From Streptococcus sanguinis (lineage in GTDB: Bacteria; Bacillota; Bacilli; Lactobacillales; Streptococcaceae), in NCBI RefSeq assembly GCF_900635155.1, contig NZ_LR134002.1:1116001-1180000 (forward strand): 64,000 nt of DNA, given 5' to 3'. A program made the translations under genes and the position numbers. Shown piece after piece: positions 1,575-27,163 of this stretch. Below the pieces are notes generated by a model that saw only the letters and a list, made by a program, of their open reading frames with translations, searched no databases and was not told the origin of the DNA. Each line of letters begins with the position of its first letter. The stretch's first letter is position 1.

Positions 1575-1597
1575 AACTGAATTGAATAGGTTGAACT

Positions 1598-1625: not shown

Positions 1626-1645
1626 ATTGGCTAGAAGGAGGCAGA

Positions 1646-4325: not shown

Positions 4326-4339
4326 TAGGAGGTGAAACG

Positions 4340-7000: not shown

Positions 7001-7014
7001 TAAAAGGAGTACAC

Positions 7015-7605: not shown

Positions 7606-7610
7606 AATCA

Positions 7611-8243: not shown

Positions 8244-8264
8244 AAACCGAAAAGGAGAGAAAGA

Positions 8265-9462: not shown

Positions 9463-9509
9463 TGGAATATCACTATAAATATAATTATAAACATAATGAG
9501 GTATAAAAA

Positions 9510-10268: not shown

Positions 10269-10275
10269 CCAAATA

Positions 10276-10310
10276 GAGCGGTCAGTTAGGAAATAATGAC
10301 CGCTTTTTTT
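10276..10310 (+). terminator. terminator after LPXTG gene
   Basis: Stem GCGGTCA / TGACCGC with a 12-nt loop, followed by seven T residues. It separates the LPXTG gene from the pcfB-virD4 pair. Confidence 0.85.
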
Positions 10311-10326
10311 AGAAAGGAGCGTAGGA

Positions 10327-12708: not shown

Positions 12709-12709
12709 C

Positions 12710-12750
12710 CAAAAGAAAACCTGTTAGGATTACCTACCAGGGTTCTTTTG
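12710..12750 (+). terminator. imperfect terminator hairpin after virD4
   Basis: AAAAGAAAACCTG pairs imperfectly with CAGGGTTCTTTT across a loop of about 14 nt. It is T-rich at the 3' side and may separate virD4 from the following small genes. Confidence 0.45.
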
Positions 12751-12774
12751 TATTTTGAGGAAATGGAGGAGAAC

Positions 12775-13116
12775 ATGATACAAGCAACTAATATGAGAGG
12801 AATAGGTTATTTTGATACCCTTTTTTCAGCCGTTGAGATGCCAACGATGGCAGAAGCCCTGAAGCGATTTGCCCTTGAACATCAAGTGACTGAAAAGAGC
12901 AATCAGGGGGAGGTCTTAAACGACTTTGTTAGCATCTTGATTAAAACATTAGACGTTGAGGATTTTCAAGCAGTCTCTACACAGCTTTTTAGCTACCCTA
13001 AACGGTATAGAGGAGTGCTTGAAGTTGAGGAGATTGAACCTTCTAAAGAAAAGTTGACTTACTTAAAAGCTAATATTGAGAGCTTACTTCAGGAAGAAAT
13101 AGAGGTGATGAAATGA
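12775..13116 (+). CDS. hypothetical element protein
   Basis: 113-residue acidic, mostly helical soluble protein with no recognised motif. ATG at 12775 is chosen because GGAGG lies 5 nt upstream; in-frame ATG at 12763 and TTG at 12748 would overlap that site. Its stop overlaps the next start (ATGA), so the two are translationally coupled. It lies between the coupling protein and the broken topoisomerase. Function unknown. Confidence 0.55.
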   Translation: MIQATNMRGIGYFDTLFSAVEMPTMAEALKRFALEHQVTEKSNQGEVLNDFVSILIKTLDVEDFQAVSTQLFSYPKRYRGVLEVEEIEPSKEKLTYLKANIESLLQEEIEVMK

Positions 13117-13373
13117 CTGAAGAGGAACTTATTAAACTTTCTACCATCCATGAGGTTTTAAGTGCAGGTGATGATATTTTAAAAGCTCAAGTTTTACTAA
13201 AAAATGCAACTCAAACCTTGGTCAATTATGCAAGTGAAAAGCCAGCTGTGATGTACCAGGAACATACACGTATAGTTGATACGCTACTTCAGACGATTTC
13301 AGAACTTGATGGCTTGGTGGAGACTGAAGACAGTCTCTTTATGGTTGAGAATATTAACTTACTTGATGACTAA
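13113..13373 (+). CDS. hypothetical element protein
   Basis: 86-residue acidic helical protein coupled to the preceding gene by a 4-bp overlap. No motif or family is recognised. The end overlaps by 15 bp the end of the convergent gene on the minus strand. Confidence 0.5.
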   Translation: MTEEELIKLSTIHEVLSAGDDILKAQVLLKNATQTLVNYASEKPAVMYQEHTRIVDTLLQTISELDGLVETEDSLFMVENINLLDD

Positions 13374-13928
13374 GTCGTCAATAATTATGGTATGGCTCTT
13401 AAGAGGGTTACTACTGAAAACCAAAGTACAGCCCATACTTTGAACCTTGTAAGCTACGCTTTTCCCATAGAAACGGGAGATTTTTTCAAATTGATCCTTA
13501 CTCATTTTTGATTGTCTTAAGTGACTGAGGTAGATAGTATCTCTTGACTGTTCTGTTACTTGACGAACCATAGTCTGATATTGTGTTGGGTCAAGCCTTT
13601 CTAATTGTTCATCAGTTATTTTTGAAAGCCTGTCAATTAAATCTTCCCAAAACATATCTAATTTATTGTCAACGGCGATAATTGGATAAATTTGGGAGAA
13701 GTATTCTGTTTGCCAATAGGCGTTAAATTGATACTTGTCATCTTTAAGATATAAATTCAGTTGACGGCAGACTTGGAGATTTTCAGTTGAGATAACAACA
13801 AACAATTGGAAATGATCATCATCAGTATTGGCTATGATGCTGATGTCTCCTGAATGGAACATGTAATTATATCTAAAATGTTTAGTTTGTAATTGTTCAA
13901 TGTTAAAAAATGCGTGTGTAAAATCCAT
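13359..13928 (-). CDS. hypothetical protein, only minus-strand gene in the element
   Basis: 189-residue soluble protein with alternating aromatic/hydrophobic beta-like segments in the first 110 residues and a helical Gln/Arg-rich second half. The minus-strand start has AAGGAG upstream at normal spacing, so it is likely translated. It may be a DUF6037-type protein, but I cannot confirm this. It is the only gene of the element facing the other way, and it sits between the coupling/accessory genes and the damaged topoisomerase. This suggests independently expressed cargo. Function unknown. Confidence 0.6.
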   Translation of the reverse strand: MDFTHAFFNIEQLQTKHFRYNYMFHSGDISIIANTDDDHFQLFVVISTENLQVCRQLNLYLKDDKYQFNAYWQTEYFSQIYPIIAVDNKLDMFWEDLIDRLSKITDEQLERLDPTQYQTMVRQVTEQSRDTIYLSHLRQSKMSKDQFEKISRFYGKSVAYKVQSMGCTLVFSSNPLKSHTIIIDDLVIK

Positions 13929-13995
13929 AGGGCTACTCCTTATAACTTTATTTAATTATAACACAAAAACCAAAGAAAGAGAGGTTGCCGTATCT

Positions 13996-14661
13996 ATGAA
14001 ATATCTGGTATTGGCAGAAAAGCCTGACCAAGCCAAGAAGTACGCTCAAGCCCTGGGGCAAGCAAAGAATGAAAAAGGGGCTTGGAAAGTCAAGACAGAC
14101 CTGCTAGATGGTCAAGTGACAATTGTTTCTGCGGTTGGTCACCTGGTAGAGATTAAAAATCCATATCAGAACTATGAAAATTGGGACTTAGCCAATCTTT
14201 CTGCCTTTCCTGAAGCCTTCGAGTATGAAGTCAAAGCTGATAAGAAAAAGCAGTTTAATTTGATTAAGCGAGAAGTCAATCAAGCAGACTGTATCATCAT
14301 TGGGACGGATGCTGACCGTGAAGGTGAGTCAATCGCCTATCTTATTTTAAGGTTGATACCAAATGCGCTTAAAAAGGCCAAGTATCGTCTTTGGGTCAAT
14401 TCATTGACCGACGCAGGTATCGTCAAAGCGTTCAAAAGTCTAAGACCTGCGGAGGAAACCCGTCAATATGCGGAAGAAGCAGAAGCACGTGCAAAGTCAG
14501 ATTGGTTGGTAGGCTTTAACTTTAGCCCCTGGACTTCCTTGAAACTTCAGGAAATGGGCTACCTTAGCGAGAAGGACAAGAAATTTTCGGTTCATCGAGC
14601 AGACCAAAAAAGCCATAACGGCACAATTAGAGAAAGGAGCAGGATAGATGGCGAGTATTGA
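13996..14661 (+). pseudogene. type IA topoisomerase (TopB-like), truncated by internal deletion
   Basis: 221 codons. Residues 1-190 match the start of a topoisomerase III: an N-terminal TOPRIM domain (LAEKPDQAKKY; TDADREGES near 104-112) and the beginning of the next domain (KSDWLVGFNFSPWTSLKLQEMGYL). The catalytic Tyr domain and the rest are missing; functional homologues are several hundred residues longer. After about residue 200 the reading does not look like the family. In the alternative frame the DNA reads a Lys/Gln-rich tail ending in TAG just before the next start codon, which suggests a deletion that also changed the frame. The TOPRIM fragment may still be made but cannot relax DNA. 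Confidence 0.75.
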
Positions 14662-17600
14662 AGAACTCAAAGCCCTGTCAATCCTAGAAGTGGCAGAAAG
14701 TCTGGGCATGAGTTTACAGCGAACAGGAAGCTATACTTACGCTTGGGAAGAACATGACTCTTTCACTATCAATGTTAGGGAAAACTATTTCAATTGGTTT
14801 GCCCGTAGCAATGGTGGGGATGTCATTAAAATGGTCCAAGTGGTCCAGGAGGAATTGACAGGGGAAAAGCTTTCTTTTAAGCAGGCGAAGCACTTCCTGG
14901 AAGAAGGTAGTTTTGACGTGGTCGATGTGACCAGCGTTCCTGAAAAAGAACCTTTCAGCTATTACCTTGAGCCTTATGAAACTAAGTTCATAGAAGCCAG
15001 GGAATACCTGAAGGAAGTCAGGGGCTTGAGTGATGAAACGATTGACTTTTTCGGTGAAAAAGGAGTCTTAGCTCAAGCTACAAAAAAGACAGGCAATTAC
15101 TATGAGCCTATCATTGTCTTTAAGAGCTTAAATAGCCAAAATGAGGTCATAGGAGCGTCTTTGCAGGGGATAAGGGAAAATCATGACCTCTACGAAAGAG
15201 GCCGCTTAAAACAGATTATGAGAGCTTCTGACGGCCTAACAGGAATGCACATCGACATTGGCCAGCCAAAGCGGCTTGTTTTTGCAGAAGCTCCTATTGA
15301 TTTAATGAGTTACTATGAGCTGCACAAAGACGAATTATCTGGCGTGCGTCTGGTAGCAATGGATGGCTTGAAAGAGTCAACCATCAGCCGGCACGTCGCT
15401 GAACTCTTGTATGAACTAGGAGAAATCAAAGCCCAGGTCAAACCTGAGAACTATTCAACCTTTCTATCTCAAACGGCAGAGGTCACAGATTTTTTCAAAG
15501 ATGGGAAACACCAGGAGCTAATCACTTTAGCAGTAGATAATGATGCAGCAGGTCATACTTTCATAAATCGCCTAGCTGATAAAGGAATTTCTTTCAGTTC
15601 AGATTTGCCATCGATGCCAGCTGGTAGAGATAAAATGGACTGGAACGACGCCTTAAAGGAGAGCAAAGAAAAAGCTCTTGACCGAAGCCAAGAGCCTATT
15701 AATAACATTGGGGGCGAACTAATCAATCGCAATTCCGGTTATTTAGAAGGCGAACCTTCAAGGACAGCACCACAGCCTGAAGAGCCAAAGGCTCAACCTG
15801 ATTTTCCTGCCAATGTTCAATTATATTTTAACATTGAACGGCCTAAAAAGTCAAGTGTGCGCCTTAGAAAAGGCTATCACTATGCGACGAATAAAGATAT
15901 TCGTTTTCTAAATCGTTATGCGGATGATATTCAAAAATCAGCTTCCTGGTATCTGCAAGAATTAGCAAACAGCAAGGTTACTTATTTCTACCAGGACAAG
16001 GAAGATGTTCAGATGCTTCAGGTGAATTTTGAAAAACGTCATTGGATGCACTTGACGGGGATTGCTCCTGTATATTCTGATTGGGTGGATAACCTTTCTG
16101 AGCAATTTATAGAAGACGTAGCAGCAGGAAAAGGGAACTTTGCCAACTTGAGCCTGGGGCTAGGGTTTAGAGATAAAGTGAAATTAATGCCATTGTTGCC
16201 TGAAATTTTTGAAACAGACTCCTTTGTCTTCGATGATTTGTCTTCCGTTGAGAAGATGGGGCGCTTGGATGTAGCTAATGCCATCCGATCAGATGATCGG
16301 GATGTGATGCTGGCTTTCAGGACGGATGATAGCTCTTCTTTTCCAGCAACTTTACTGAATCCTAATCAAACACTTAATGTTGAGTTAGACGCTCTAAATC
16401 AAGAAAAAACGATTTTGGGAGTCTTTGTTGAGAAGAACAACGAAATCAAAACTTTATCGGTAAATAAAGAGTTTGTTGTTGATGGCGGCCAGCAAATGCT
16501 TGAAACCTTGAAGCAACATCAAGGAATAGAAATTTTAAAGGAGAATTTATCAATGCCAGAAAATCAAGCCCAAAGTTTAAGAGAGCGTGTTGAACAAATC
16601 CAACGAGAAGACCAGGAAAGACAACAAGCTCTAGCCCAAAAAGAAGAGTTAGAACGAGACTCAGACGGGGACGGAATTCCAGACGCTGTAGAGCGCAACA
16701 TGGGAACCAATCCTTATAGTCCAGATACTGACGGAGACGGAAAGTCTGATCAGGAAGAAATTTCTTACGGCTCAAATCCTTTGGCAGCTGATAACTCTAA
16801 AAATGAAAATCTTTCTTCTTCCGGGCAGCAAAAAACAGTTGCTGAATTGATTGCTGCAAAAGATAGTAAAGGTCTTGCCCAAGTTCTAAAAGAAGGAGTA
16901 AAAGATTATTTCAAGTCTGACACATACAAGCAATATTTATTAGCTATGAGTAAGTTTCACAATTACTCACCACTGAATATTCAAATGATTTTGAGACAAA
17001 ATCCAAGAGCTTCTCATGTCGCATCTTTCAAAAAATGGAAGGATGAATTTAGCAGAAGTGTTAATAAAGGAGAAAAAGCATTGCGGATTTTTGCTCCTAT
17101 AACAGTGAAAAAAAGAGATCCAAAAACGAATGAGCCACTGCTTGATAAAGATGGAAAAGAAATTACTTATACCTCTTTTAAGCTCGTTCCAGTCTTTGAT
17201 GTTTCTCAGACTGATGGGAAAGAATTGCCTAAACCAGTCTATGAACTGAAAGGCTCTTATCAAGATTATGGCAATCTTTATAAGTCCGCTAAAGAGGTAT
17301 CCGAAGCTAACGGAGTTCCAATTTCTTTTAGCGAAGATACAAAGGGAGCCAAGGGATATTACTCACCTGTCAGCAATGAAATTGTTATCAAAAAAGGTCT
17401 GTCTGAGCAGCATACGTTAAAAACTATCTTTCATGAAATGGCACATTCAGATTTACACAATTTGGAAAAAAGAGCGGAGACTCCATTTAATTTAAGCACT
17501 GCAGAATTGCAAGCGGAGTCAGTAGCCTTTGTTGTATCTAGTCATTATGGACTTGATACAAGCGAATATAGTTTTGGATATTTGGCTAATTGGACGCAAG

Positions 17601-17851
17601 ACCCAAGAGGACTTAGTGACTTAGAAGGACAAATCAAAATTGTTCAAAAAGAAGCTGACAGTTTGATTGCTAGAATTGACCAAGCTCTTGAAAAGTATCA
17701 AAGTAAAGAATTGACAAAGGACGCTTTTCAACAAAAGCTAGACCGATTGAAAGAGCAATCCAAAGAACAAACTTTAGAGTCAAAAGAGAAAGAGACGGCG
17801 AAAGATGAAATAAAAAAAGCCGAGAAGAGCAACAATCAGCTGAACCTGTAA
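14648..17851 (+). CDS. LtrC-like fusion: primase-like/TOPRIM, TSP3-type Ca-binding repeats, ArdC domain, zincin metallopeptidase
   Basis: 1067 residues. The first 90 resemble a DnaG-type zinc-finger fold without its Cys residues. About 95-330 is a DUF3991/TOPRIM-like region with a Glu motif (FAEAPIDL) and D297-N-D299. About 370-660 is an uncharacterised middle region. About 671-715 holds two Asp-rich repeats of the thrombospondin-3 type (DSDGDGIPD, DTDGDGKSD). About 730-880 is an ArdC-like N-terminal ssDNA-binding/anti-restriction domain. HEMAH at 929-933, with a downstream Glu near 957, is a zinc metallopeptidase motif. It probably acts in the recipient to prime DNA and counter defences. It overlaps the topoisomerase fragment by 14 bp. 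A run of seven A near the end may mark a frameshift. Confidence 0.8.
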   Translation: MASIEELKALSILEVAESLGMSLQRTGSYTYAWEEHDSFTINVRENYFNWFARSNGGDVIKMVQVVQEELTGEKLSFKQAKHFLEEGSFDVVDVTSVPEKEPFSYYLEPYETKFIEAREYLKEVRGLSDETIDFFGEKGVLAQATKKTGNYYEPIIVFKSLNSQNEVIGASLQGIRENHDLYERGRLKQIMRASDGLTGMHIDIGQPKRLVFAEAPIDLMSYYELHKDELSGVRLVAMDGLKESTISRHVAELLYELGEIKAQVKPENYSTFLSQTAEVTDFFKDGKHQELITLAVDNDAAGHTFINRLADKGISFSSDLPSMPAGRDKMDWNDALKESKEKALDRSQEPINNIGGELINRNSGYLEGEPSRTAPQPEEPKAQPDFPANVQLYFNIERPKKSSVRLRKGYHYATNKDIRFLNRYADDIQKSASWYLQELANSKVTYFYQDKEDVQMLQVNFEKRHWMHLTGIAPVYSDWVDNLSEQFIEDVAAGKGNFANLSLGLGFRDKVKLMPLLPEIFETDSFVFDDLSSVEKMGRLDVANAIRSDDRDVMLAFRTDDSSSFPATLLNPNQTLNVELDALNQEKTILGVFVEKNNEIKTLSVNKEFVVDGGQQMLETLKQHQGIEILKENLSMPENQAQSLRERVEQIQREDQERQQALAQKEELERDSDGDGIPDAVERNMGTNPYSPDTDGDGKSDQEEISYGSNPLAADNSKNENLSSSGQQKTVAELIAAKDSKGLAQVLKEGVKDYFKSDTYKQYLLAMSKFHNYSPLNIQMILRQNPRASHVASFKKWKDEFSRSVNKGEKALRIFAPITVKKRDPKTNEPLLDKDGKEITYTSFKLVPVFDVSQTDGKELPKPVYELKGSYQDYGNLYKSAKEVSEANGVPISFSEDTKGAKGYYSPVSNEIVIKKGLSEQHTLKTIFHEMAHSDLHNLEKRAETPFNLSTAELQAESVAFVVSSHYGLDTSEYSFGYLANWTQDPRGLSDLEGQIKIVQKEADSLIARIDQALEKYQSKELTKDAFQQKLDRLKEQSKEQTLESKEKETAKDEIKKAEKSNNQLNL

Positions 17852-17917
17852 AGGATATTGTTGCTCAATTATCTGACGGCTTTATGCAACGAAGAAAGAC
17901 AACGGAGGAAACATGAA

Positions 17918-18178
17918 ATGACAGAAAATGTTGAAACAACTCTACTGCTAAATCTATTCTATTTTGAGAATGGACGTTACAGCAGAAATGAAGATTTTAT
18001 TGCAGCAAAACGCAGAAAGGCTATTGCTTTACTGGATGAAGATGCAGAAGATTTGAAAGAGATTGATCCAGAATTGGCTCTAGAATATACAGAGACGATT
18101 GACTATCTGGACTCTATTTCAGATGAAGCCTATCAGGCTGTTAAGGTCGATTTGCTTTCAAGAATTGAAAGCAAATAA
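17918..18178 (+). CDS. small conserved element protein
   Basis: 86-residue acidic, helical protein. ATG at 17918 is chosen because GGAGG lies 9 nt upstream; upstream in-frame codons overlap what is probably the lost tail of the previous gene. No motif is recognised. It is placed between the primase/ArdC fusion and the presumed oriT, so it may belong to the DNA-processing module. Function unknown. Confidence 0.5.
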   Translation: MTENVETTLLLNLFYFENGRYSRNEDFIAAKRRKAIALLDEDAEDLKEIDPELALEYTETIDYLDSISDEAYQAVKVDLLSRIESK

Positions 18179-18179
18179 C

Positions 18180-18380
18180 GTCCAAAGGACGGAAAAGGGG
18201 CTTGGGGATTTCCCCAAAACTTTGAAAGGTTTTCCTGCTCCTAAATTGGCAAAATGCCAGTTTTTGGAGTTTGGAAAATCTTTTAAAATGCGTAAGGTGA
18301 TATCACCTTGCTATGCTTGCCAGTTTGAAAAGTATAGAGGGAGCCAATGCAGATGTCAATAGGAAATTCGAGGAAAAAAT
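18180..18380 (+). other. probable oriT region (palindrome cluster upstream of mobC-relaxase)
   Basis: A 200-bp non-coding gap directly upstream of the MobC and relaxase genes, the usual place of oriT. It holds three inverted repeats: TTGGGG-AT-TTCCCCAA near 18205, TTGGCA-AAA-TGCCAG near 18246, and the perfect palindrome AAGGTGATATCACCTT near 18294, followed by a GCTTGCCAG motif. The nick site cannot be assigned by eye. Confidence 0.55.
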
Positions 18381-18755
18381 ATGAGCGATCCAAAAAAATT
18401 ATATAGACAAATACAAAAAATTATGCGAGTAACACCTGAAGAAAATGAGCTTATCAATCGAAGAATGGCTCAACATAATTTTTCAAATTTCAACACCTAC
18501 GCTCGCTATATGCTACTGACTGGTGAGGTAGTGACGGTAGATTATTCAGAACTAATTAAACTGAGAACAGAGATAAATCGGATTGGTACGAACATCAACC
18601 AGCTAGCAAGATATGTCAACACGAACGAGGAAATCAGCTTAGAAAATTATCAAAACTTACAGCACTCACTCGCAAAAGTAAAGCGCTTGATGGAAGAAAA
18701 TTTCAATCACGAAATTTCTCAGATTGAAAAGCTGCTAAAGGAAAGACGGGGGTAA
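18381..18755 (+). CDS. mobC: MobC family relaxosome protein
   Basis: 124-residue protein with an N-terminal ribbon-helix-helix-like section (residues about 15-50, including a Thr-Pro-Glu-Glu-Asn-Glu-Leu start) and the RTEINRIGTNINQLARYVN signature near 62-80 that typifies MobC (MOBP-associated) proteins. It binds oriT and helps the relaxase open the nick region. It lies 8 bp before the relaxase gene and 2 bp after the presumed oriT. Confidence 0.88.
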   Translation: MSDPKKLYRQIQKIMRVTPEENELINRRMAQHNFSNFNTYARYMLLTGEVVTVDYSELIKLRTEINRIGTNINQLARYVNTNEEISLENYQNLQHSLAKVKRLMEENFNHEISQIEKLLKERRG

Positions 18756-18762
18756 AAATGTC

Positions 18763-20409
18763 TTGGTCGTAACAAAAGTAAAACAAATAAAATCGGTCAA
18801 TAAATTAGCTGAAGGTCTGAAATATATCAAAGATGGAGCGAAAACGATTGGAACAGAATTACTAGATCCTGACTTGAATTTTCCTATCAAAATTGTTAAT
18901 GGTCAGCCTGTCTCTCAGCTGGTTTCTGGAAATTTGCTGGTCGATGTGGACTCGGCCTTTTCTGAAATGATGCAGTTAAAACAGCTGGCCAATATTGAAA
19001 AAGGTCGGCCGATTAACAATGAAGAATTTTCAAAAAATGATGTTTTAGCTCACCATGTTATCCAGTCCTTTTCTCCAGAAGATAATCTAACACCAGAGCA
19101 AGTTCATGAGATTGGACGAAAGACTGCGCTTGAACTGACAGGTGGAAGTCATCAGTTTGTCATTGCTACTCATTTAGATAAAGGCCATCTGCACAATCAC
19201 ATTTATATCAATTCGACTAATTCGATTACACTTAATAAATTTCGTTGGCAGAAAAAAACCAAGAGTGCCTTAGAGAAAATTTCTGATAAACATGCGGACG
19301 TTGCTGGTGCTAGTATTATAGCTGTAAAAAATCCTTTTGGTCATAAAGAATACGCAGCTTATCGCAGAGAAAATTCATTCAAGTTAGAAATTAAATCTAG
19401 GCTTGAGTTCTTGCTCAAACACTCAACCAGCTTAGACGATTTTCAGGATAAAGCAAAAGCCTTAAATCTAGCGGTTGACTTTTCTGGGAAGTATGCAAAA
19501 TACAAATTGCTAGATCAAGAGCAGAAGAGAAATACTAGAGACAGTACCTTATCCAAAAAAGGACGGTACTCTCAAGAACAAATTAGGGAGCGCCTGGCAA
19601 AGAATGAAATTGTTCATCCTTTAGAGAAAATCAAAACTGAATATGACAAGCTGCAAGCGGAAAAAGCTGAGGACTTTGAAAAGAGGGTCAAGATTGAACC
19701 GTGGCAAGTCGAGTACGAGACAGACTCAGGTATCTATCTACAAATTCAATACGGGATAGCAAACCAGGGAACTGTAAAAATTCCTAACCGGCTGATTGAT
19801 AAACAAGAAGATGGCAGCTTTGATATTTTTATCAAAAAATCTGACTTTTTCTATTTCATCAATCCTGATAATTCTACTAGCAATAAGTTTATGAAAGGTT
19901 CAACTTTAATCAATCAACTAGCTTATGAGAGCGGCGAATATGTGCTGACTAAAAATCCTAATATTTCAAAATTGGAACAGTTAGTCAAGGAATATAATTA
20001 TCTTGTCAGTCACAATGTCTCTGACTCAGACCAGTTTCATGATTTAAGAGATCGTTTCATTGAACAGATTGAAGAAACGCAACAATCTCTCAAACGGTTA
20101 GATGACAAAATCGAGCGACTCAATAAGATAGCCTCTGCCCTGGAAGATATTCATTTGGAAAACCCTATCGATGCAAAAGCTGCTTATCAGGTTTTAGAGC
20201 AGTACTCAATATCTTCTGAAGTAGATCCAAAAGATATTGAAAAACAAGTGATTGAGGTTTCTGTTGAGCGGAAAGGGCTGAAAGATAAGTTTGATAGTAT
20301 CGTCAAAGACTTTACTCAGTATGAAAAATTAGAACGTAACGCTGAAGCAAGAAGAACAAATCAGAGTCTATATGGTAAAATTGAACCAAAAGAAGATTTA
20401 ACAAAATAG
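18763..20409 (+). CDS. MOBP-type relaxase (Relaxase/mobilisation nuclease, VirD2-like)
   Basis: 548 residues. The N-terminal 200 residues form the relaxase domain. The motif I region has a candidate catalytic Tyr at about 21 (GLKYIKDGAKT). The metal-binding motif III is H142-L-H144-N-H146. The C-terminal half is helical and rich in Lys and Glu, with coiled-coil sections. It would nick oriT, attach to the 5' end and pilot the strand through the VirD4/VirB4 channel. The start is TTG at 18763 after a GGGGG ribosome binding site; no better codon is nearby. Confidence 0.9.
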   Translation: MVVTKVKQIKSVNKLAEGLKYIKDGAKTIGTELLDPDLNFPIKIVNGQPVSQLVSGNLLVDVDSAFSEMMQLKQLANIEKGRPINNEEFSKNDVLAHHVIQSFSPEDNLTPEQVHEIGRKTALELTGGSHQFVIATHLDKGHLHNHIYINSTNSITLNKFRWQKKTKSALEKISDKHADVAGASIIAVKNPFGHKEYAAYRRENSFKLEIKSRLEFLLKHSTSLDDFQDKAKALNLAVDFSGKYAKYKLLDQEQKRNTRDSTLSKKGRYSQEQIRERLAKNEIVHPLEKIKTEYDKLQAEKAEDFEKRVKIEPWQVEYETDSGIYLQIQYGIANQGTVKIPNRLIDKQEDGSFDIFIKKSDFFYFINPDNSTSNKFMKGSTLINQLAYESGEYVLTKNPNISKLEQLVKEYNYLVSHNVSDSDQFHDLRDRFIEQIEETQQSLKRLDDKIERLNKIASALEDIHLENPIDAKAAYQVLEQYSISSEVDPKDIEKQVIEVSVERKGLKDKFDSIVKDFTQYEKLERNAEARRTNQSLYGKIEPKEDLTK

Positions 20410-20426
20410 AAAAGGGTTTTATTGCC

Positions 20427-21233
20427 ATGAAAAAGAAAGATTTGCCAAAAATTATTATTATTGCTATTGTTATTTTGTTTGTAATACCATTACTTATAAA
20501 TCTATCCTTTAAAATTGCCTCTATACGTTTGTTAGCTGCCGAGTGGACAGCAGGAGATTTGCTGTCTTTCTATGGTGCTGTTCTTGGAGCAGTCATAACA
20601 TTAATAGGTCTATTTTTCACATTAGATTATCAATCAAAACAAGGCAGAAAAGATGATGAAATCAAGTATAAGCCTATTTTAAGATTCAACTCAATGAATA
20701 ATGAATTTGAGGAATTAATGGGAAGACAAGAAGTAATCGTATCTTTTCCGTTTGGATCGTCCGAACAAAAGATCAAGAAGAAATCATCAGAATTAGATAA
20801 GAGAATTTATGAAATATTTACTAAAGACCTCACTCATTTTCATATGGTATTAAAAAATAAAGGAAGAGGAGAAGCGACTAAGGTATCTTTAGATAAAGCA
20901 GTTCTAAAAAATGCAAAGTTGGATAAAGAAAGTCACTTATATATTAAACAATCTTTTCCGGTTTCTTTAGGTGAAATTATTGTAGATGAAACAGTTGATA
21001 TTGATATTGTTTTACCTAACTTTATGTTTTTAAAAGATGGTATTTCAGAGGATTTTATTTTCATCGAATTAGAGATATCTTATGATGATATATTTCAAAG
21101 AAATAGAACGACTATCAAAACATTATTCCGTTTTAAAGTTACTCCTAAAGTAGGATATGAAGCTCCATACTACAAAGAAGGTTTCAAATTGAATAAAGTA
21201 AAAGTTGAATTCATGGAATTTCGACAAATCTAA
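20427..21233 (+). CDS. two-helix membrane protein of unknown function (cargo)
   Basis: 268 residues with two membrane segments (about 8-30 and 43-66, joined by a short Glu/Trp/Thr loop) and a large C-terminal domain of beta character, probably cytoplasmic. Base composition is clearly more AT-rich than in the transfer genes, which suggests separate acquisition. The start is ATG at 20427 after AAAAGGG. It lies 17 bp behind the relaxase and just before a palindrome cluster and a resolvase. I do not recognise the family. Two-helix proteins of this shape occur among element cargo and defence-associated proteins, but nothing here shows such a role. Confidence 0.6.
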   Translation: MKKKDLPKIIIIAIVILFVIPLLINLSFKIASIRLLAAEWTAGDLLSFYGAVLGAVITLIGLFFTLDYQSKQGRKDDEIKYKPILRFNSMNNEFEELMGRQEVIVSFPFGSSEQKIKKKSSELDKRIYEIFTKDLTHFHMVLKNKGRGEATKVSLDKAVLKNAKLDKESHLYIKQSFPVSLGEIIVDETVDIDIVLPNFMFLKDGISEDFIFIELEISYDDIFQRNRTTIKTLFRFKVTPKVGYEAPYYKEGFKLNKVKVEFMEFRQI

Positions 21234-21305
21234 TGGCCAATAAGGTATGCCCTATTGGCCTTGCACGTGCAACTTGATTTTACTGGCCTGAAGAAACGGC
21301 CAATA
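21234..21305 (+). promoter_or_regulatory. palindrome cluster upstream of resolvase (possible res site)
   Basis: GGCCAATA at 21235, its inverted copy TATTGGCC at 21253, the perfect 12-bp palindrome TTGCACGTGCAA at 21261, and a third GGCCAATA at 21298. This could be the resolvase binding/crossover region, an operator, or in part a terminator of the previous gene. There is no T-run. Confidence 0.45.
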
Positions 21306-21331
21306 GAGTTAGGCAAAAAGGAGGTAAGAAA

Positions 21332-21919
21332 ATGTCGAAAATCGGTTATGCCAGAATCAGCTCGGCCGATCAAAATCTATCTCGGCAACTGGAGCAGCTG
21401 AAGGGATGTGAGAAGATTTTTCAAGAAGCGGCCAGCGGAGCCAGCAAGGAGCGGCCCCAGCTGCAGGCTCTCCTGGGGTATGTCCGAGAGGGTGATGTAG
21501 TCACCGTAACAGAGCTAGAGCGTCTGGGTCGAAACAATCAGGAGCTGACAGAGATAATGGCTGCCTTACAAACAAAGGGAGCAACTTTGGAGGTGCTAAA
21601 TCTTCCAACCCTGAGAGGAATTGAGGATGACAATCTCAGGCGGCTTCTGAATAGTCTAATTTTAGAAATATATAAGTATCAAGCGCAGGCTGAACGAGAG
21701 CGCATCAAGGAGCGCCAACGTCAGGGGATTGTTCTTGCCAAGGCTCAGGGTAAGTACCAGGGCAGGAAGGCTCTCTATACTGAAGATGATGAGCGTCTGC
21801 AGCATGCCTTTGATTTGTATCTTCAGGGATATACAGATAGAGACGTTAGTAAGCTGACTGGAATATCAGAAAGGACTTTTAGGCGGTATCGAGATAAATT
21901 TCATATCAAGCGAAAATAA
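21332..21919 (+). CDS. serine recombinase (resolvase/invertase family)
   Basis: 195 residues, the normal length of small serine resolvases. The N-terminal catalytic domain begins GYARISSADQN, with Arg8 and the nucleophile Ser10. The LERLGRNNQE helix and the RERQRQGI hinge follow. The C-terminus is a helix-turn-helix (DVSKLTGISERTFRRYRDKF). It may resolve element dimers or cointegrates, which suits an element with plasmid-like maintenance. A strong ribosome binding site (AAAAAGGAGGT) precedes it. GC content is higher than in the flanking cargo. The stop codon lies inside a 17-bp perfect palindrome. Confidence 0.9.
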   Translation: MSKIGYARISSADQNLSRQLEQLKGCEKIFQEAASGASKERPQLQALLGYVREGDVVTVTELERLGRNNQELTEIMAALQTKGATLEVLNLPTLRGIEDDNLRRLLNSLILEIYKYQAQAERERIKERQRQGIVLAKAQGKYQGRKALYTEDDERLQHAFDLYLQGYTDRDVSKLTGISERTFRRYRDKFHIKRK

Positions 21920-21951
21920 AAAAATATTATTTTTATAATATTTTTTTATTT
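21914..21951 (+). terminator. AT-only perfect hairpin overlapping resolvase stop codon
   Basis: Seventeen-base perfect arms (21914-21930 and 21935-21951) around a TTTT loop, made only of A and T. It may terminate resolvase transcription or act as a partition/replication site. The core motif returns in inverted form at about 21983-22003. Confidence 0.6.
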
Positions 21952-22088
21952 ACTTTTAATTATTTTTGTAGTATAATTATATTATAAAAATAATATTAAA
22001 ATAATTGATAGAAAGCTGATGCGAAATAAATCCTAGAAATTCTCTCGCAGAAACAGCAATCTTGGGAATATAAAATGAGGTTAGTAAA

Positions 22089-22880
22089 ATGAAAAGTATT
22101 TTGAGGTACCCAGGGAGTAAATGGAATCTGGCCAGTAAAATTGTTGACTTGATGCCAGATCATAAGAGTTATCTAGAGCCATTCTTTGGCAGCGGAGCTG
22201 TTCTCTTTACAAAAACTTTAAGTAGCATTGAGACAGTTAATGACTTAAATGATGATGTTGTTAATCTATTTCAAGTTATCCAACAAGAACCAGAGACTTT
22301 AATCGAAAAATTGTTTTTGACTCCTTATAGTCGAAAAATCTATGACAATGCTTGGGAAATACAGCCAAAGAATGAGGTAGACAAAGCCCTTAATTTCATT
22401 ATTCGGTCACTGATGTCTCACGGTTTTAGGAATTTTGAAAAATCTGGCTGGAAACGTGATGTGAATGGACGTGAAAGAGCCTATGCAGTCAAGCATTGGA
22501 ACGAACTGCCAGAACTTATTCAAGAAATTTCTCTGCGGCTAAAGCAGGTTCAGATTGAATGTCGTCCAGCATTTGATTTGATTTCTGAGTATGACCGTGA
22601 AAATGTATGCATGTATATAGATCCTCCTTATGTCCTTAGTACAAGGACAAGGAAACAGTATACTATTGAGATGGAAGACCAGGAACACGAGGAATTGCTG
22701 GATATCCTGAACCAATCTAAGGCAAAAATTCTCTTAAGCGGTTATGACAGTGAACTTTATAAAAAGCAACTGAGAAACTGGGAAAGAGTTGAGTTTGCGG
22801 CTACTGCAGAGCATGGTTTACCTAGAACAGAAGTTCTTTGGATGAATTATCAGTCAAAGAAACAGCTTGAATTGTTTTAA
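22089..22880 (+). CDS. dam: D12-class DNA N6-adenine methyltransferase (Dam-like)
   Basis: 263 residues, the normal size of Dam/DpnM-type enzymes. The N-terminal SAM-binding motif is YPGSKWNL with FFGSGAVLF near 35-43, and the catalytic DPPY is at 178-181. No cognate restriction gene is visible nearby, so it is probably an orphan methylase that protects the element from host restriction on entry or marks replication. The recognition site cannot be read from sequence; GATC is likely for this family. It is expressed from an AT-rich promoter region (TATAAT near 21973), with a leader of about 110 bp. Confidence 0.9.
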   Translation: MKSILRYPGSKWNLASKIVDLMPDHKSYLEPFFGSGAVLFTKTLSSIETVNDLNDDVVNLFQVIQQEPETLIEKLFLTPYSRKIYDNAWEIQPKNEVDKALNFIIRSLMSHGFRNFEKSGWKRDVNGRERAYAVKHWNELPELIQEISLRLKQVQIECRPAFDLISEYDRENVCMYIDPPYVLSTRTRKQYTIEMEDQEHEELLDILNQSKAKILLSGYDSELYKKQLRNWERVEFAATAEHGLPRTEVLWMNYQSKKQLELF

Positions 22881-23006
22881 AAACTAAGTTACTTTGCTAG
22901 AAAATTCTAGGTGAGTCTTTCTGAATATGAGTTATTGATAAATCATAAAATGAAGGCTTCTAGCGACCAATTAAGGTATAATAGACTATAGAAAAGAGGA
23001 TTTGAA

Positions 23007-23828
23007 ATGAAGATTATTACATTTGCAGCTATCAAAGGTGGGGTAGGTAAAACAACCCTAGCATTTAATTTCAGTGAGTGGTTGGCTCGCCAAGGAAAAA
23101 AGGTTTTAGTAATTGACTTGGATCATCAGTGTAATCTGACACAAACCTATGATATTTACGATGACACTGACACAGTGGCTAATATCTTTAAGGGTGAGGG
23201 AGAGGTAAAACTTATTCCTGTTAAGTCCAATATAACTCTCATTCCTGGCTATATGCAACTAGACACAATCGAAAAGCACCTTGAAAACAAGGTCAATAAA
23301 GATATGCTGTTGTATATGTGGTTGGAAGATCATTACGATGAAAAAAATCTTGAGCAGTTTGATTATGTGATTATTGACTGTCATCCAGACTTTTCAACGG
23401 CTACTAGGAATGCTATAGCCGTTAGTCACTCTATTATCAGTCCGATTATCCCAAGCGAACATGGTTACAATGCCAAGTTTAACCTGGAGGATAGGTTGGA
23501 GAATTTCAGAAACGAAGTTATTAATTATCGAACTAGAGAAAGCTATATCACCGCTCAGCTCTACTTCGTACCAAACATGATTAAGCATAATACTAACTCT
23601 TCTAGAAGCCTATTAGAGACTTTAAATCAGGCTGAGGATGACAACACTATCTTTTTACCGGGAACGCAGGAAGTTGTTTATATTCCTCAAAAAGAATTGT
23701 TTAACAAATCAACGATGGATAAACAGTCTATTTTTGAAATGGCTGAGGATGCTGCTGTTCTTCAAAGAAATCGAAGATTCTTTGAAGAAATGGATCAGAC
23801 TTTTCAAGTTATTTGTGATATAATATGA
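23007..23828 (+). CDS. parA: ParA family partition ATPase
   Basis: 273 residues. The deviant Walker A motif KGGVGKTT is at residues 10-17, and the LVIDLDHQCN segment (about 34-43) and YVIIDCHPD (about 120-128) are the other ParA/Soj motifs. It would segregate or stabilise the element when it exists as a circle, as reported for TnGBS elements with plasmid-like maintenance. A TATAAT at 22978 and a GAAAAGAGG ribosome binding site precede it. The partner genes follow after an AT-rich palindrome. Confidence 0.92.
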   Translation: MKIITFAAIKGGVGKTTLAFNFSEWLARQGKKVLVIDLDHQCNLTQTYDIYDDTDTVANIFKGEGEVKLIPVKSNITLIPGYMQLDTIEKHLENKVNKDMLLYMWLEDHYDEKNLEQFDYVIIDCHPDFSTATRNAIAVSHSIISPIIPSEHGYNAKFNLEDRLENFRNEVINYRTRESYITAQLYFVPNMIKHNTNSSRSLLETLNQAEDDNTIFLPGTQEVVYIPQKELFNKSTMDKQSIFEMAEDAAVLQRNRRFFEEMDQTFQVICDII

Positions 23829-23832
23829 AAAT

Positions 23833-23895
23833 AATAGTTTTATCATATTATAAAATGATAAAACTAATTGATAAATATTATAAAAATAGTTTAAA
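23833..23895 (+). promoter_or_regulatory. AT-rich inverted repeat (possible centromere or operator)
   Basis: AGTTTTATCAT and ATGATAAAACT are perfect 11-bp inverted repeats separated by ATTATAA, followed by a copy of ATATTATAAAAATA near 23875. The latter is shared with the 21.9-22.0 kb repeats. Its place between parA and its partner gene suits a parS or autoregulatory operator. Confidence 0.5.
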
Positions 23896-23908
23896 AAGGA
23901 GAAACAAG

Positions 23909-24142
23909 ATGGCATTCGAAGCAAAAAGAGATAAAATCAAAAAGGCTCTTGGAGAGCCGATAGATAAAAAAACAATTCCTAGTGTTAGTTTACCGAGCAG
24001 AGAGGAGCCTGATTTAGTTCCCTCTACCTATACACTGGAGAGAAGGAATAAGGAAAAGCTGGCTCGTTTAGCAAAAGCTAACGGATATGAGAAATCTACT
24101 GCAGCATTCCTTAATGATTTAATAGCAGGCATCCAAGAATAG
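23909..24142 (+). CDS. small ribbon-helix-helix-like partition partner
   Basis: 77 residues. A basic N-terminus (MAFEAKRDKIKKAL) is followed by a Pro-rich linker and a C-terminal unit with the pattern TYTLERRNKEKLARLAKANGYEKSTAAFLNDLI, which looks like a CopG/RHH DNA-binding fold. Small RHH proteins commonly act as the centromere-binding partner of ParA. ATG at 23909 has AAAAGGAG at good spacing; the longer upstream reading crosses the palindrome and is not used. Confidence 0.65.
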   Translation: MAFEAKRDKIKKALGEPIDKKTIPSVSLPSREEPDLVPSTYTLERRNKEKLARLAKANGYEKSTAAFLNDLIAGIQE

Positions 24143-24215
24143 AAAAATATTGTTTTTATATGATGAATATAAGATAAAAAACAAAATAAATCTATTTTGA
24201 AAAAGGTGGGGCTCT

Positions 24216-24890
24216 ATGAACAAACAAAGCAAAAACAAAAAGCGTTTAAAAAAATTAGCAAAAGAATCTAAAGCTAAGATTGAGAAGAACAGAATGGCTA
24301 TAGAAGAATATTGCTATCAACAAATTTCTCATCTGGAGTTTTTAAATGAACTTGAAAAGAGGAGTATTGCAAAAAGTATAGCAAGAGTACCTAAAAATTA
24401 TGCTAGGGATTCTGAATCGATTAAAGATTGGTGGAATTACTGTCAATATCCGGCAAATTTCGGAGGATACCTCCCCCATCTTAATATAACGATATGCATA
24501 GGAAAATTAGCAACCATCTTAAAAAGGCAGAATTTTGAGACATGTCAAATAGCCTCTAAACGATTTTCTGAAATTAAAGAAGAGGTAGATGTTAGCAATA
24601 TCGATAAGAAGTGTGTTTATTACCAGAACGAAGATCTATCAGATGTAGAATTAAAAGACGAACCAATCATTATTTTAAAAGATTTAAATGGGCTCTGTAG
24701 AGTTATAGATGGGAATCATAGGGCTACAAACGCCGTGAAGAATAATCTCCCTTATTTAGATGCATATATTGTTGACGATGCATTTATAACAGATAACGAT
24801 TGTTTTGGCACTAGATATGATCAAGAATTATATTTTGCTAATAAGATGATGTATGATACTTATTATAAACGTTATCCAGATTTATATTGA
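24216..24890 (+). CDS. ParB/Srx-like domain protein
   Basis: 224 residues. The N-terminal 50 are Lys-rich and helical. The C-terminal half contains a strand-turn-strand leading to VIDGNHRATNAVK (about 168-180), the DGNHR-type motif of ParB/sulfiredoxin-like folds. This superfamily includes partition proteins and nucleotide-using nucleases. Together with ParA it may be part of element maintenance, but it could be independent cargo. Very AT-rich compared with the transfer module. A terminator follows directly. Confidence 0.5.
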   Translation: MNKQSKNKKRLKKLAKESKAKIEKNRMAIEEYCYQQISHLEFLNELEKRSIAKSIARVPKNYARDSESIKDWWNYCQYPANFGGYLPHLNITICIGKLATILKRQNFETCQIASKRFSEIKEEVDVSNIDKKCVYYQNEDLSDVELKDEPIIILKDLNGLCRVIDGNHRATNAVKNNLPYLDAYIVDDAFITDNDCFGTRYDQELYFANKMMYDTYYKRYPDLY

Positions 24891-24915
24891 CTTTCCGGGT
24901 TGGAAAGTCTTTTTT
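24889..24915 (+). terminator. terminator after ParB-like gene
   Basis: Stem GACTTTCC / GGAAAGTC with loop GGGTT, followed by six T residues. It overlaps the stop codon. Confidence 0.85.
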
Positions 24916-25011
24916 GTCATTTCAGGGATAAAAAATGACATTTCAGAGGTGAGTTACTCCAAAATATTTGGTACATGGTAAACTTTTCTTATCACTTGAA
25001 GGAGGAAAGAA

Positions 25012-25131
25012 ATGCTGAGAAAATTGAAAAGCTGGCATAAAAAATATTTTGGAGTTGGAAGTACCTTTTATCGTAAAATAGCCCACTTTGAAAGCTGGCT
25101 ATATGATGCGATTGTTTCCAAACTATTCTAA
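25012..25131 (+). CDS. 39-residue basic peptide
   Basis: Short gene with a strong ribosome binding site (GAAGGAGG, 8 nt before the ATG). The peptide is rich in Lys, Trp, Phe and Tyr, with an amphipathic pattern (MLRKLKSWHKKYFGVG... SWLYDAIVSKLF). It is followed at once by a structured non-coding stretch with a terminator. Size, charge and the neighbouring RNA could suit a small toxin or regulatory peptide, but no family is recognised. Confidence 0.45.
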   Translation: MLRKLKSWHKKYFGVGSTFYRKIAHFESWLYDAIVSKLF

Positions 25132-25149
25132 AGTTTGTGTTATACTGGT

Positions 25150-25209
25150 TGTGAGGTGGTAACCCTAACAACTATCTCTTGCCTGGCCTGTTGGTCAGGC
25201 TCTTTTTTT
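25150..25209 (+). ncRNA. candidate small RNA with intrinsic terminator
   Basis: TATACT at 25141 could be a -10 box, though the -35 is weak. The following 60 nt contain a stem GTTGT...ACAAC with an internal GTGGTAACCC, then a terminator stem GCCTG / CAGGC and seven T residues. Possibilities are an antisense copy-control or antitoxin RNA, or an attenuator before the transposase gene. Confidence 0.45.
25181..25209 (+). terminator. terminator upstream of transposase gene
   Basis: GCCTG...CAGGC stem followed by TCTTTTTTT. It would isolate the transposase gene from upstream transcription. Confidence 0.75.
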
Positions 25210-25277
25210 ATCATGGACTTGAAAATTTCACCAAAAAACAATAATATAATACCTAAGTTTTAGAAAGGGGTTAGCTT

Positions 25278-26657
25278 ATGGGTGTGACTGTCCTGGATGA
25301 AAGAAAATTTTTAGCAGATTTGAGAAAGCAGAATGAAGAAGCCTTCCTGAAGGCTGTAACTCGATATGATGATCAGGTTGCCCCGTCTATGCGTGCCAGG
25401 GGCTACAAATTGAAAAATAGATCAGCCCGTACAGTTGCTTTTATCTTTGGGGAAATTTGCTTTGAAAGAAACCGCTGGTACAAAAAGGGAACTTGCAAGG
25501 TGCCGGTGGATGAATGGCTTGGCTTGGAGAAACACAGCCGTTTCAGCATGGAGCTGATTTATCAAATTAACCAGATTTCAACGTGTACCACTTACCGCAA
25601 AACAGCGGATCTGATAGAGTTTATGACTGGTATCAATCTAACAAAAGATACTGTCCTGAAAGCTGTTAAGCGAGCTGCAGCGCTCAAGAAGGAACAAGAA
25701 GAATATGACCTTCTGTCTCTTACGGAAGTTACAGAGGAAAACAAAAAAAGCCCTGAGAGGCTCTACATTGAAGGTGATGGAGTCTGGGTCAAAACACGAT
25801 CTAAACAAGGAGAGGAAGCCAAATATAGCAATATCTCTCATTATGTCATCCATACAGGAAGCGAGCAGGTCGGCCAGTCCAAACGCAGGCAGTTAAAAAA
25901 TAAAAAGAACGTGCTTTCTTTATCTGGTAGCAAAGCCAAAGAGCAGGCATTAGATTACGTGCATCAGACCTATAAAACAGGAAAGGGAACAACCCTTATT
26001 ACTAATTCTGATGGCGGTCCGGGTTATGGAGGCAAAGTTTTCAAGGATTTTGCGGCCGCTTTTAAAGTTCAAAGACATGAGCATTTCTGGGATCCGTACC
26101 ATTTGCAGCAAGAGATAGAAAAGAATTATAAAGCGCAGCCAGAAGAGCTAAAAGAACTCTTGAAACAGGCTATTTATCAGCATGACTTTGACCTTCTTCA
26201 AACAACCATTGACACAACAGAAAGTCTAATTGACGACGAGGAAGAAACGGCTTCTTTTCAGGACTTTGCCAGAAGGCTGAAGCGTAATTTTAGTTATACA
26301 AAGCCTGCCTCACTTCGCAATCTCCCAAAGAAAGGAATTGGTGTGATGGAGTCGCAGCATAGGCGCCTTACTTACAGAATGAAGAACCAGGGAATGATCT
26401 GGAGTTTAGAGGGGGCTGAGATTATGGCTAATATGATATTAGCTGTAGAAGAAGGTACCCTAAGAGAGTTGTTTTTCGGGGACTGGCGTAAAGCATCTCA
26501 AAAAATGAAAGGGTTAGATAAGGTTTCTGGAGGAAAAGTAAGAAAATACATGAACCATTTGGACAGTCTAAAGCGGAATTTCCAGATTGGAGAGGGAAGA
26601 AAGGCACATAAAGCTCGACGTCAAAGTCATAAAAAAGGTGCTACTATCCTAAGATAA
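25278..26657 (+). CDS. UPF0236/ISLre2-like DDE transposase (TnGBS-type)
   Basis: 459 residues, normal for UPF0236 (ISLre2-related, Mutator superfamily) transposases. Recognisable features are the N-terminal Cys-poor domain with RSARTVAFIFGEICFERNRWYK, the VEGDGVW-like strand (YIEGDGVWVK, about 167) carrying a catalytic Asp, the NSDGGPGYG segment (about 243) with a second acidic residue, and the C-terminal GIGVMESQHRRLTYRMKNQGM block with a Glu. In TnGBS elements this enzyme moves the whole conjugative element and chooses sites upstream of sigma-A promoters. The ribosome binding site is AAAGGGG. It is the last gene before the right end. Confidence 0.88.
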   Translation: MGVTVLDERKFLADLRKQNEEAFLKAVTRYDDQVAPSMRARGYKLKNRSARTVAFIFGEICFERNRWYKKGTCKVPVDEWLGLEKHSRFSMELIYQINQISTCTTYRKTADLIEFMTGINLTKDTVLKAVKRAAALKKEQEEYDLLSLTEVTEENKKSPERLYIEGDGVWVKTRSKQGEEAKYSNISHYVIHTGSEQVGQSKRRQLKNKKNVLSLSGSKAKEQALDYVHQTYKTGKGTTLITNSDGGPGYGGKVFKDFAAAFKVQRHEHFWDPYHLQQEIEKNYKAQPEELKELLKQAIYQHDFDLLQTTIDTTESLIDDEEETASFQDFARRLKRNFSYTKPASLRNLPKKGIGVMESQHRRLTYRMKNQGMIWSLEGAEIMANMILAVEEGTLRELFFGDWRKASQKMKGLDKVSGGKVRKYMNHLDSLKRNFQIGEGRKAHKARRQSHKKGATILR

Positions 26658-26731
26658 TCAAACAGTCCTGTATAGTTCTTCTGGGGTTGAAAACTCTAGG
26701 GTTTATTTGACATGCCGTCATCATTTTTCTG

Positions 26732-26760
26732 TTGACATCGCTTGAAATTAGTTGTATAAT
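26732..26760 (+). promoter_or_regulatory. consensus sigma-A promoter next to element end
   Basis: TTGACA at 26732, a 17-bp spacer and TATAAT at 26755, a perfect match. It starts about 16 bp right of the inferred element end, the spacing known for TnGBS insertion. It drives transcription into the structured RNA region, antisense to the minus-strand RNA. Confidence 0.85.
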
Positions 26761-26775
26761 TATAGCAATAAGAAA

Positions 26776-26846
26776 CAAAAAAAGAGGCAGGTGCGCTAAC
26801 ACCTACCTCCACCGAGTAAACAAGTACAGTTGTGTTACTCAGTCTT
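26776..26846 (-). ncRNA. about 70-nt structured RNA with own promoter and terminator (Fst/par antitoxin-like)
   Basis: Minus-strand promoter TTGACA (complement of 26876-26881), 17-bp spacer, TAAACT (complement of 26853-26858). The RNA would start near 26846. It holds a hairpin GAGTAA...TTACTC and a terminator GAGGTAGGTG...CACCTGCCTC followed by seven T. Size and convergent-promoter layout resemble the RNAII antitoxin of Fst-type systems. No toxin reading frame was found beside it, so the family is uncertain. Confidence 0.6.
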
Positions 26847-26984
26847 TAATCTAGTTTACAGCATAAAGTAGAGAATGTCAAGGCTGAAGTGAACGATTGT
26901 ATACGTTTGCATCTCATTTCCTTGAATTTCTGCTATTTTTTTATCTTCTCAAAAATTGAGACACATACTTTTAGATTAAATACC

Positions 26985-27014
26985 TTGACAAAACGGAAAA
27001 TGATAAGGTAAACT
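26985..27014 (+). promoter_or_regulatory. promoter of asd-upstream RNA
   Basis: TTGACA at 26985, an 18-bp spacer and TAAACT at 27009. Confidence 0.7.
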
Positions 27015-27019
27015 ATATT

Positions 27020-27163
27020 TCGTGCGATGAGTCGATATGCAGTTTTTCTGCAAATTGAAGCATGGGAGGTCATAAACGCAGGAGCGGACCTTGATCAGTT
27101 GTGTGAACCTGCTGATCACACGAAAGTGCCCTTATCCCCAGTCTATGGATTGGGGATTTTTCT
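27020..27163 (+). ncRNA. structured RNA upstream of asd, probably the asd RNA motif
   Basis: From its own promoter the RNA runs about 140 nt. The ends of the body pair (TTTCGTG near 27019 with CACGAAA near 27119), giving a rod-like fold with inner stems. It is followed by an intrinsic terminator ATCCCCA / TTGGGGAT and a T-run at 27135-27162. A lactic-acid-bacterial RNA found upstream of asd (asd motif, known in Streptococcus pyogenes as an independent transcript) fits by position and size. I recall the family, not its exact consensus. With its own terminator it probably acts in trans. Confidence 0.6.
27135..27163 (+). terminator. terminator of asd-upstream RNA
   Basis: Stem ATCCCCA / TTGGGGAT with a loop of about 8-9 nt, followed by TTTTTCT. 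Confidence 0.8.

Follow-up and report, generated by a model that had tools for sequence, protein, structure and literature searches.

The right end of a TnGBS-type ICE of Streptococcus sanguinis carries an outward promoter followed by a structured RNA, which is probably the promoter and antisense-controlled leader of the element's own rep/tra operon, split from that operon by the ends of the integrated element and switched on by circularization. The ICE measures 29,193 bp (genome 1,113,776-1,142,968) and most of it lies within the window, by which we mean the whole stretch of 64,000 nucleotides analysed here. Its right 26,968 bp occupy positions 1..26968 (plus strand), whereas the left 2,225 bp (genome 1,113,776-1,116,000; L011 17776-20000) precede the window and contain the left terminal inverted repeat (IRL), a terminator named T2, a 53-aa ORF and repA.

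Three lines of evidence put the right end of the ICE at 26,968: its inverted repeats, a 9-bp duplication that is perfect, and empty sites that are uninterrupted in five relatives. IRL, whose start precedes the window by 2,225 bp, and the right repeat IRR (26946..26968, plus strand) are identical at 19 of 25 positions and finish with a terminal C, and in this element an imperfect likeness of the two ends, with gaps, reaches ~60 bp. The duplication, TTTTAGATT, flanks both ends of the ICE, its right copy lying at 26969..26977 (no strand assigned). When positions 26500-27700 were compared with 147 genomes of the genus, the alignment of element-free relatives began at 26,969 and none reached further left, so that the sequence up to 26,968, including that up to 26,731, is absent from them; G132 (S. 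sanguinis SK49), whose element is 97-98% identical, has its copy at another place, and this second locus aligned at 98% up to 26,968 only. Five relatives possess an uninterrupted empty site in which a single copy of the duplication joins the left flank directly to the right flank (95.0-95.9% over 419 bp), and a sixth has it at 85%. The inverted repeats, the 8-9 bp duplication and the empty sites that the original prediction had proposed to look for were thus all found, the left end 2,225 bp beyond the window, and yet they move the right end 237 bp further right than the 26,731 it had given. At the left edge the insertion took the place of the stop codon in a GNAT acetyltransferase-like gene (identified by eye), which lengthens the product by six residues. 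In S. sanguinis KO16 (G241, L062) the same MarS promoter is targeted on the right as in the window, and at the left end the adjoining 1,193 bp of host sequence are gone, as in a transposase-type adjacent deletion.

The target of the insertion is the promoter of the MarS/asd sRNA (26985..27014, plus strand, TTGACA-18-TAAACT, 10/12 consensus), whose -35 box at 26,985 is 16 bp from IRR. The ICE had been predicted to sit beside an intact RNA locus, and it does adjoin an intact host RNA gene, but that gene is MarS/asd (27022..27161, plus strand, Rfam match to RF01732) and not the RNA that follows the promoter at 26,732; the latter promoter, taken at the time for the insertion target, is internal to the element. 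The TnGBS rule that IRR lies 15-17 bp upstream of a sigma-A -35 box, as given in the part of PMC3942029 consulted, is obeyed as had been claimed, with a spacing of 16 bp, though measured from 26,968 to 26,985. Among related elements the same spacing prevails: with repeated flanks merged and G108 skipped for its Ns, 32 distinct right flanks remained, and a promoter of at least 9/12 was present at offset 16 in 22 of them and at offset 17 in 6, compared with 0-2 at each of the remaining offsets between 5 and 30. Since several elements of different genomes share promoter targets (the right flanks of G045, G202 and G209, with G136 similar, and also those of G184, G197, G172 and G066), preferred insertion sites exist. 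Between MarS and asd (27160-27540) the window also holds two similar stretches of ~170 bases in tandem, with a relative elsewhere in the genome, at 74,847.

The transposase gene (25278..26657, plus strand) encodes a DDE transposase of the UPF0236/ISLre2 family, the assignment made in the original prediction, with matches to PF06782 (3.7e-30) and to the NCBIfam ISLre2 model (231.8 bits, cut-off 200); a search for PDB sequence matches to it found none. The candidate DDE triad, picked by eye, is D167, D245 and E358, which gives a D2-E distance of 113 aa (the range of the insert in TnGBS-family transposases is 99-138 aa), and a D(2)H motif is present 27 aa after D245, the family range being 11-19 aa after D2. 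The stretch directly before this gene (25012-25208) contains an ORF of 39 aa that has a ribosome-binding-like site, and also a strong terminator (stem 25181-25200). Among the remaining genes are those for a VirB4-like conjugation ATPase of the CD1110 family (1932..4325, plus strand, above the NCBIfam cut-off), a VirD4-like coupling protein of the CD1115 family found by profile searches (10867..12708, plus strand), a MobA/VirD2-like relaxase (18763..20409, plus strand; a profile match, the NCBIfam relaxase models scoring below their cut-offs) and a ParA-like partition ATPase (23007..23828, plus strand), so that conjugation genes, the RepA_N replicase and ParA are all identified in the ICE. No integrase family was detected among 24 element proteins scanned with Pfam, in agreement with the original prediction, and a serine resolvase (21332..21919) is internal to the element.

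On the features tested, namely transposase, inverted repeats, duplication, target spacing and the conjugation, RepA_N and ParA genes, the element belongs to the TnGBS family, and its description as a transposase-driven TnGBS-type ICE holds. According to the sections consulted of PMC3942029 and PMC4701971, it shares with TnGBS1 and TnGBS2, whose transposases are p-MULT 3, the transposase family, inverted repeats with a terminal C, the 9-bp duplication, the insertion 16 bp upstream of -35 with IRR beside the promoter, RepA_N, ParA, the conjugation genes and a presumed circle intermediate. In those sections terminal repeats are described as 18-39 bp long and ending in C (PMC3942029), the target duplication is 8 bp in the set of PMC4701971, and replication of the family is reported to depend on circularization (PMC3942029).

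Both the promoter at 26,732 and the structured RNA behind it are part of the element, and the promoter points outward. The promoter (26732..26760, plus strand, TTGACA-17-TATAAT) matches the consensus at 12 of 12 positions, as had been noticed earlier, and perfect sites of this kind number 19 in the whole genome. The structured RNA that was expected directly behind it is also there: the predicted leader runs from an estimated start site to the element end (26768..26968, plus strand) and matches a covariance model at 26776-26918 (E 1.9e-12), while no Rfam family was found for this right-end module. The leader comprises stem-loop HP1 (26784..26809, plus strand) and stem-loop HP2 with a variable recognition loop (26811..26843, plus strand), followed by a convergent promoter on the minus strand (26853..26881, TTGACA-17-TAAACT). 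As HP1 reads on the minus strand as an intrinsic terminator (a stem with a T-run, 26810-26777) that the convergent promoter faces, an antisense RNA of ~70 nt (26777..26846, minus strand) is predicted. Such a convergent antisense promoter with a terminated small RNA inside a leader is, at the level of sequence, the signature of antisense-RNA transcription attenuators of the pIP501/pT181/Anti-Q kind. Closer to the end lies a candidate antiterminator, AT2 (26912..26932, plus strand), complementary to the 5' arm of T2 at the left end, and the attenuator HP3, which usually follows the antisense promoter, is degenerate in the window element (G000) and likewise in G241.

The module, in the order outward promoter, HP1, HP2, convergent antisense promoter and usually HP3, is present 104-268 bp downstream of the transposase in 91 of 97 long transposase matches, fragments being left out of the count. 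Among the six matches without it, G080 meets a contig end, G087 and G277 have internal stops and G227 is only 30% identical; the others are G213:C204 and G219, the latter absent from the covariance-model genus sample, its module being found in the order sample. The covariance model gave 110 module matches in 78 of 279 genus genomes. Of the 295 genomes in the order sample 9 gave a match, all but one belonging to the genus, and in the class sample matches were confined to the genus (4 of 299 genomes). The ninth genome of the order sample, G355, belongs to another family of the order and has a weak module match (E 1e-4), a transposase-sized ORF and, 16 bp ahead of a TTGACA, an end resembling IRR (L195), from which the layout may occur outside Streptococcus.

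Thirty-six elements were delimited at both ends (38 pairs of RepA_N gene and transposase, that is 37 plus the window element, minus G080 and G130 at contig ends and G219 with its right end missing, plus G248s), and 33 of these carry an exact 9-bp duplication. Promoter-like outward and convergent sites occupy corresponding places in all 36, as picked by a script at loose thresholds, the outward picks for G108 and G248s being set by hand. The link between module and transposase extends across the Rep types RepA_N and PriCT_1; inheritance of the module only with RepA_N is ruled out by a PriCT_1 element and by a carrier plasmid with a Rep_3-type gene. Short RepA_N ORFs beside some transposases had suggested small IS-like elements, a reading that was rejected, as the one case that was resolved, G248s, measures ~43 kb and has a PriCT_1 gene close to the left end; the left ends of G142s and G282s were not found in about 63 and 39 kb, respectively. 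We also looked for unsplit rep leaders among 19 modules not adjoining a listed transposase: none of the nine stretches examined is a module before a rep gene, and those of G033, G054, G148, G114 and G268, genomes outside the 82 with a transposase match, are read as right-end remnants before host genes. Decayed, scar-like right ends with the module standing alone before host genes were seen at L188, L189, L190, L192 and L196 (G033, G050, G054, G114 and G268). In one locus survey 13 of 30 loci were readable, the rest being reversed or out of frame.

The pairing of HP1-HP3 is supported by covariation. In 23 non-redundant leaders, which remained after removal of those at least 92% alike, 85.1% of cells are paired as opposed to 36-48% in slid versions, and two-sided cells number 74 compared with 27.4 in shuffles, none of 500 shuffles being as high; the structure was taken from G106, itself one of the tested sequences. 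The covariation of the HP3 antiterminator is mixed, as two-sided cells are matched by 0 of 500 shuffles, pairs changed on both sides by 105 of 500 and pair types by 223 of 500. When leaders were folded up to the 5' arm of HP3, the antiterminator reached a probability of 0.70 and HP2 0.08, and blocking the antisense target brought HP3 to 0.82; these are means of 21 leaders that leave out G000 and G241 and follow the HP3 register of G106, in which G045, G101 and G184 score 0. Most leaders have a terminator before the element end.

Loops such as that of HP2 are typical recognition sites of antisense RNAs. Among 59 modules we counted 41 different HP2 loops (from 62 right ends, 3 of which lack HP2 by the patterns used; six right ends with no located left end were included for the loops only). 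In 14 sister pairs the loop has 13 substitutions in 122 positions versus 34 in 1922 elsewhere (p 1.6e-6), the loops being identical in 7 of the 14, and the centre of HP1 is not significantly faster (7/196, p 0.096). Co-resident pairs number 22; the same loop is found in 4 of them, all exact copies, and most of the others are distant overall, while the co-resident G023a and G023b are 93% alike and differ by six loop bases. Between some close relatives the HP1 loop is inverted, one being the reverse complement of the other (G000 versus G132, and G205 versus the G184 group), which would alter antisense specificity in one step.

The counterpart of the leader is at the left end, where the rep operon begins behind T2. 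This terminator lies inside IRL in 22 of 23 left ends and is followed by the rep region; G101 has no T2 by the rule used and is missing from the T2 folding sets. Before repA, 2 promoter-like sites were observed in 14 elements versus 8 expected from mononucleotide shuffles, and a separate scan of the window element, whose rep distance is too short in that count, gave none on the plus strand between IRL and L011 18850. The repA gene starts 0.3 to about 2.8 kb inside IRL, a left-end position owed partly to selection as RepA_N elements were chosen by a RepA_N gene upstream of the transposase, and in some elements other ORFs come first, which could have their own promoters. A similar non-coding stretch precedes the same small transfer ORF at L011 19250-19440 and at ~6290-6490 of L202 (plasmid pSUT-380-1); it is possibly a further structured RNA or a transfer origin, and L011 17700-19999 gave no Rfam match above cut-off.

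Folding of the left ends of 22 elements indicates that the two halves can pair across the junction. The T2 stem has a probability of 0.94 next to the host flank and of 0.92 when non-cognate right ends are joined to it, compared with 0.56 in the cognate circle, and the pairing of the T2 5' arm with the right end is 0.72 for cognate versus 0.43 for non-cognate ends. The response varies among elements: in 9 of the 22 modelled circles T2 drops below 0.5, and in 10, including the window element with its stem at 0.96, it stays at 0.9 or above. Before its 3' arm is made, the T2 5' arm of the window element pairs with its own right end at 0.82, a value that none of the 21 non-cognate ends reaches. Cognate ends have no advantage over non-cognate ones in G210, G142a and G142b, and only 6 of the 22 elements have the cognate end among their two best partners.

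Joined forms of the two halves exist in nature. Plasmid p1_CUN_G3 of S. ruminicola (41,625 bp) is a TnGBS-type element deposited as a circular plasmid with its inverted repeats joined, and reads transposase, outward promoter, HP1, HP2, antisense promoter, HP3, IRR, ATA, IRL, T2, a 55-aa ORF and RepA_N. S. parasuis pSUT-380-1 (25,027 bp), whose VirB4 is 84.8% identical to that of the window ICE and whose replication gene is of the Rep_3 type, has neither a transposase match at E 1 or better nor inverted repeats above background, and it carries the module (E 8.8e-11), an AT2/T2 pair and, after these, transfer genes whose counterparts in the window ICE were recognised by eye. Because both features are retained in the absence of transposase and inverted repeats, the module appears to be a leader of the rep/tra operon, and AT2/T2 pairing to be independent of transposon ends. 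In Lactococcus piscium pCMTALT02A (VirB4 65% identical) no module (best E 0.26) and no transposase match were found.

It is conceivable that the complementarity of right and left ends amounts to no more than an extended inverted repeat to which the transposase binds, the T2 antiterminator being a by-product. The ends of the window element, alike over ~60 bp with gaps, and the 10 of 22 elements whose T2 does not open in the circle speak for this, and part of the AT2/T2 complementarity could indeed serve DNA binding. As a full explanation we find it unlikely, for the repeats published for these elements in PMC3942029 span 18-39 bp, mean pairing is better with cognate than with non-cognate right ends, the AT2/T2 pair of pSUT-380-1 exists apart from repeats and transposase, and HP1-HP3 and the antisense promoter are left unaddressed. 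Still less probable, in our estimate, is an insertion of the usual TnGBS kind whose right-end RNA has no role in rep/tra control and acts only as an insulator that keeps transcripts of transposase and leader from IRR and the host. HP1 and HP3 are terminators that would shield the host, and the module is tied to the transposase in RepA_N and PriCT_1 elements alike, but a strong outward promoter, a convergent antisense promoter and a hypervariable loop would all be superfluous to an insulator, and the module also precedes the transfer genes of the transposase-free plasmid. That the module acts mainly on the host, its outward promoter driving or disturbing the downstream gene, here MarS, we hold to be very improbable: the promoter is aimed at the host and degenerate HP3 makes read-out possible in this element, but the targets vary (32 distinct flanks) while the module is conserved, and in most leaders a terminator comes before the end. 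An element end at 26,731 with the promoter at 26,732 as target draws on the perfect consensus match of that promoter and is, given the inverted repeats, duplication and empty sites, next to inconceivable.

We thus return to the reading of a split operon. The DDE transposase has put the ICE in front of the MarS sRNA promoter, at a distance of 16 bp. In the integrated state rep/tra should be off, since 29 kb separate the promoter and leader from the rep/tra half and the promoter is directed at the host. Once the transposase makes the circle, IRR would meet IRL and the leader would run into T2 and repA. The ~70-nt antisense RNA from the convergent promoter is predicted to bind HP1-HP2. With antisense scarce, the 3' arm of HP2 would capture the 5' arm of HP3, and the segment before IRR the 5' arm of T2, so that transcription continues; with antisense abundant, HP3 would form and transcription would stop. 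The output of the operon would then track the copy number of the circle, which is how pIP501/pT181 and the Anti-Q system of pCF10 behave, and specificity (incompatibility) would reside in the HP2 loop. Because HP3 is degenerate in the window element, control there would rest on T2 as the sole attenuator, and some read-out toward MarS is possible. We infer from the sequence that both RNAs are made, that attenuation and antisense action operate and that integrated copies are silent. For the family as a whole we incline, with some reserve, to the view that circularization is the on-switch and that the hypervariable loop defines incompatibility groups, co-resident ICEs sensing only their own circles.

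The control would work as in pIP501/pT181 attenuation and pCF10 Anti-Q, and the circle dependence as in Tn916. In the leader of the conjugation operon of pCF10, a convergent antisense RNA induces termination (prgQ/Anti-Q; PMC6540685, in part), and the VirB4 proteins of such E. faecalis plasmids are related to that of the ICE (about 43%); unlike the ICE, in which leader and operon occupy opposite ends of an integrated element, pCF10 is described there as an autonomous plasmid under pheromone control. In pIP501/pT181, as presented in the portion consulted of PMC5703833, an antisense RNA likewise acts against a long leader and alternative pairing decides on a terminator before rep, but the leader is another one, and rep is here RepA_N, or PriCT_1 in G248s; from the same portion, RepA_N plasmids outside staphylococci appear to be devoid of such RNA control. 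In Tn916 too the operon gets its promoter only upon joining of the ends (Celli and Trieu-Cuot 1998, as cited in PMC6540685), but this is a tyrosine-recombinase element, and the part of PMC6540685 consulted describes no comparable antisense-gated leader for it. In PMC3942029 and PMC4701971, as far as their consulted sections go, TnGBS is discussed with no mention of an antisense-gated right-end leader or of its split from the rep operon. A search for publications on TnGBS together with antisense RNA found none, and the combination of a split leader and operon with an antisense gate had no earlier description in the parts of the literature searched, a comparison outside which the primary TnGBS papers lie.

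ICEs of the TnGBS type, which are common among streptococci, are known to replicate in circular form, and the literature examined, as far as it was covered, does not describe how their replication and transfer are restrained. A split operon with an antisense-gated junction would be a direct answer to what restrains rep/tra in the chromosome and limits it in the circle. If it is true, the coexistence of such ICEs would be predictable from a few loop bases, and integrative elements would be tied to the copy-control logic of plasmids.
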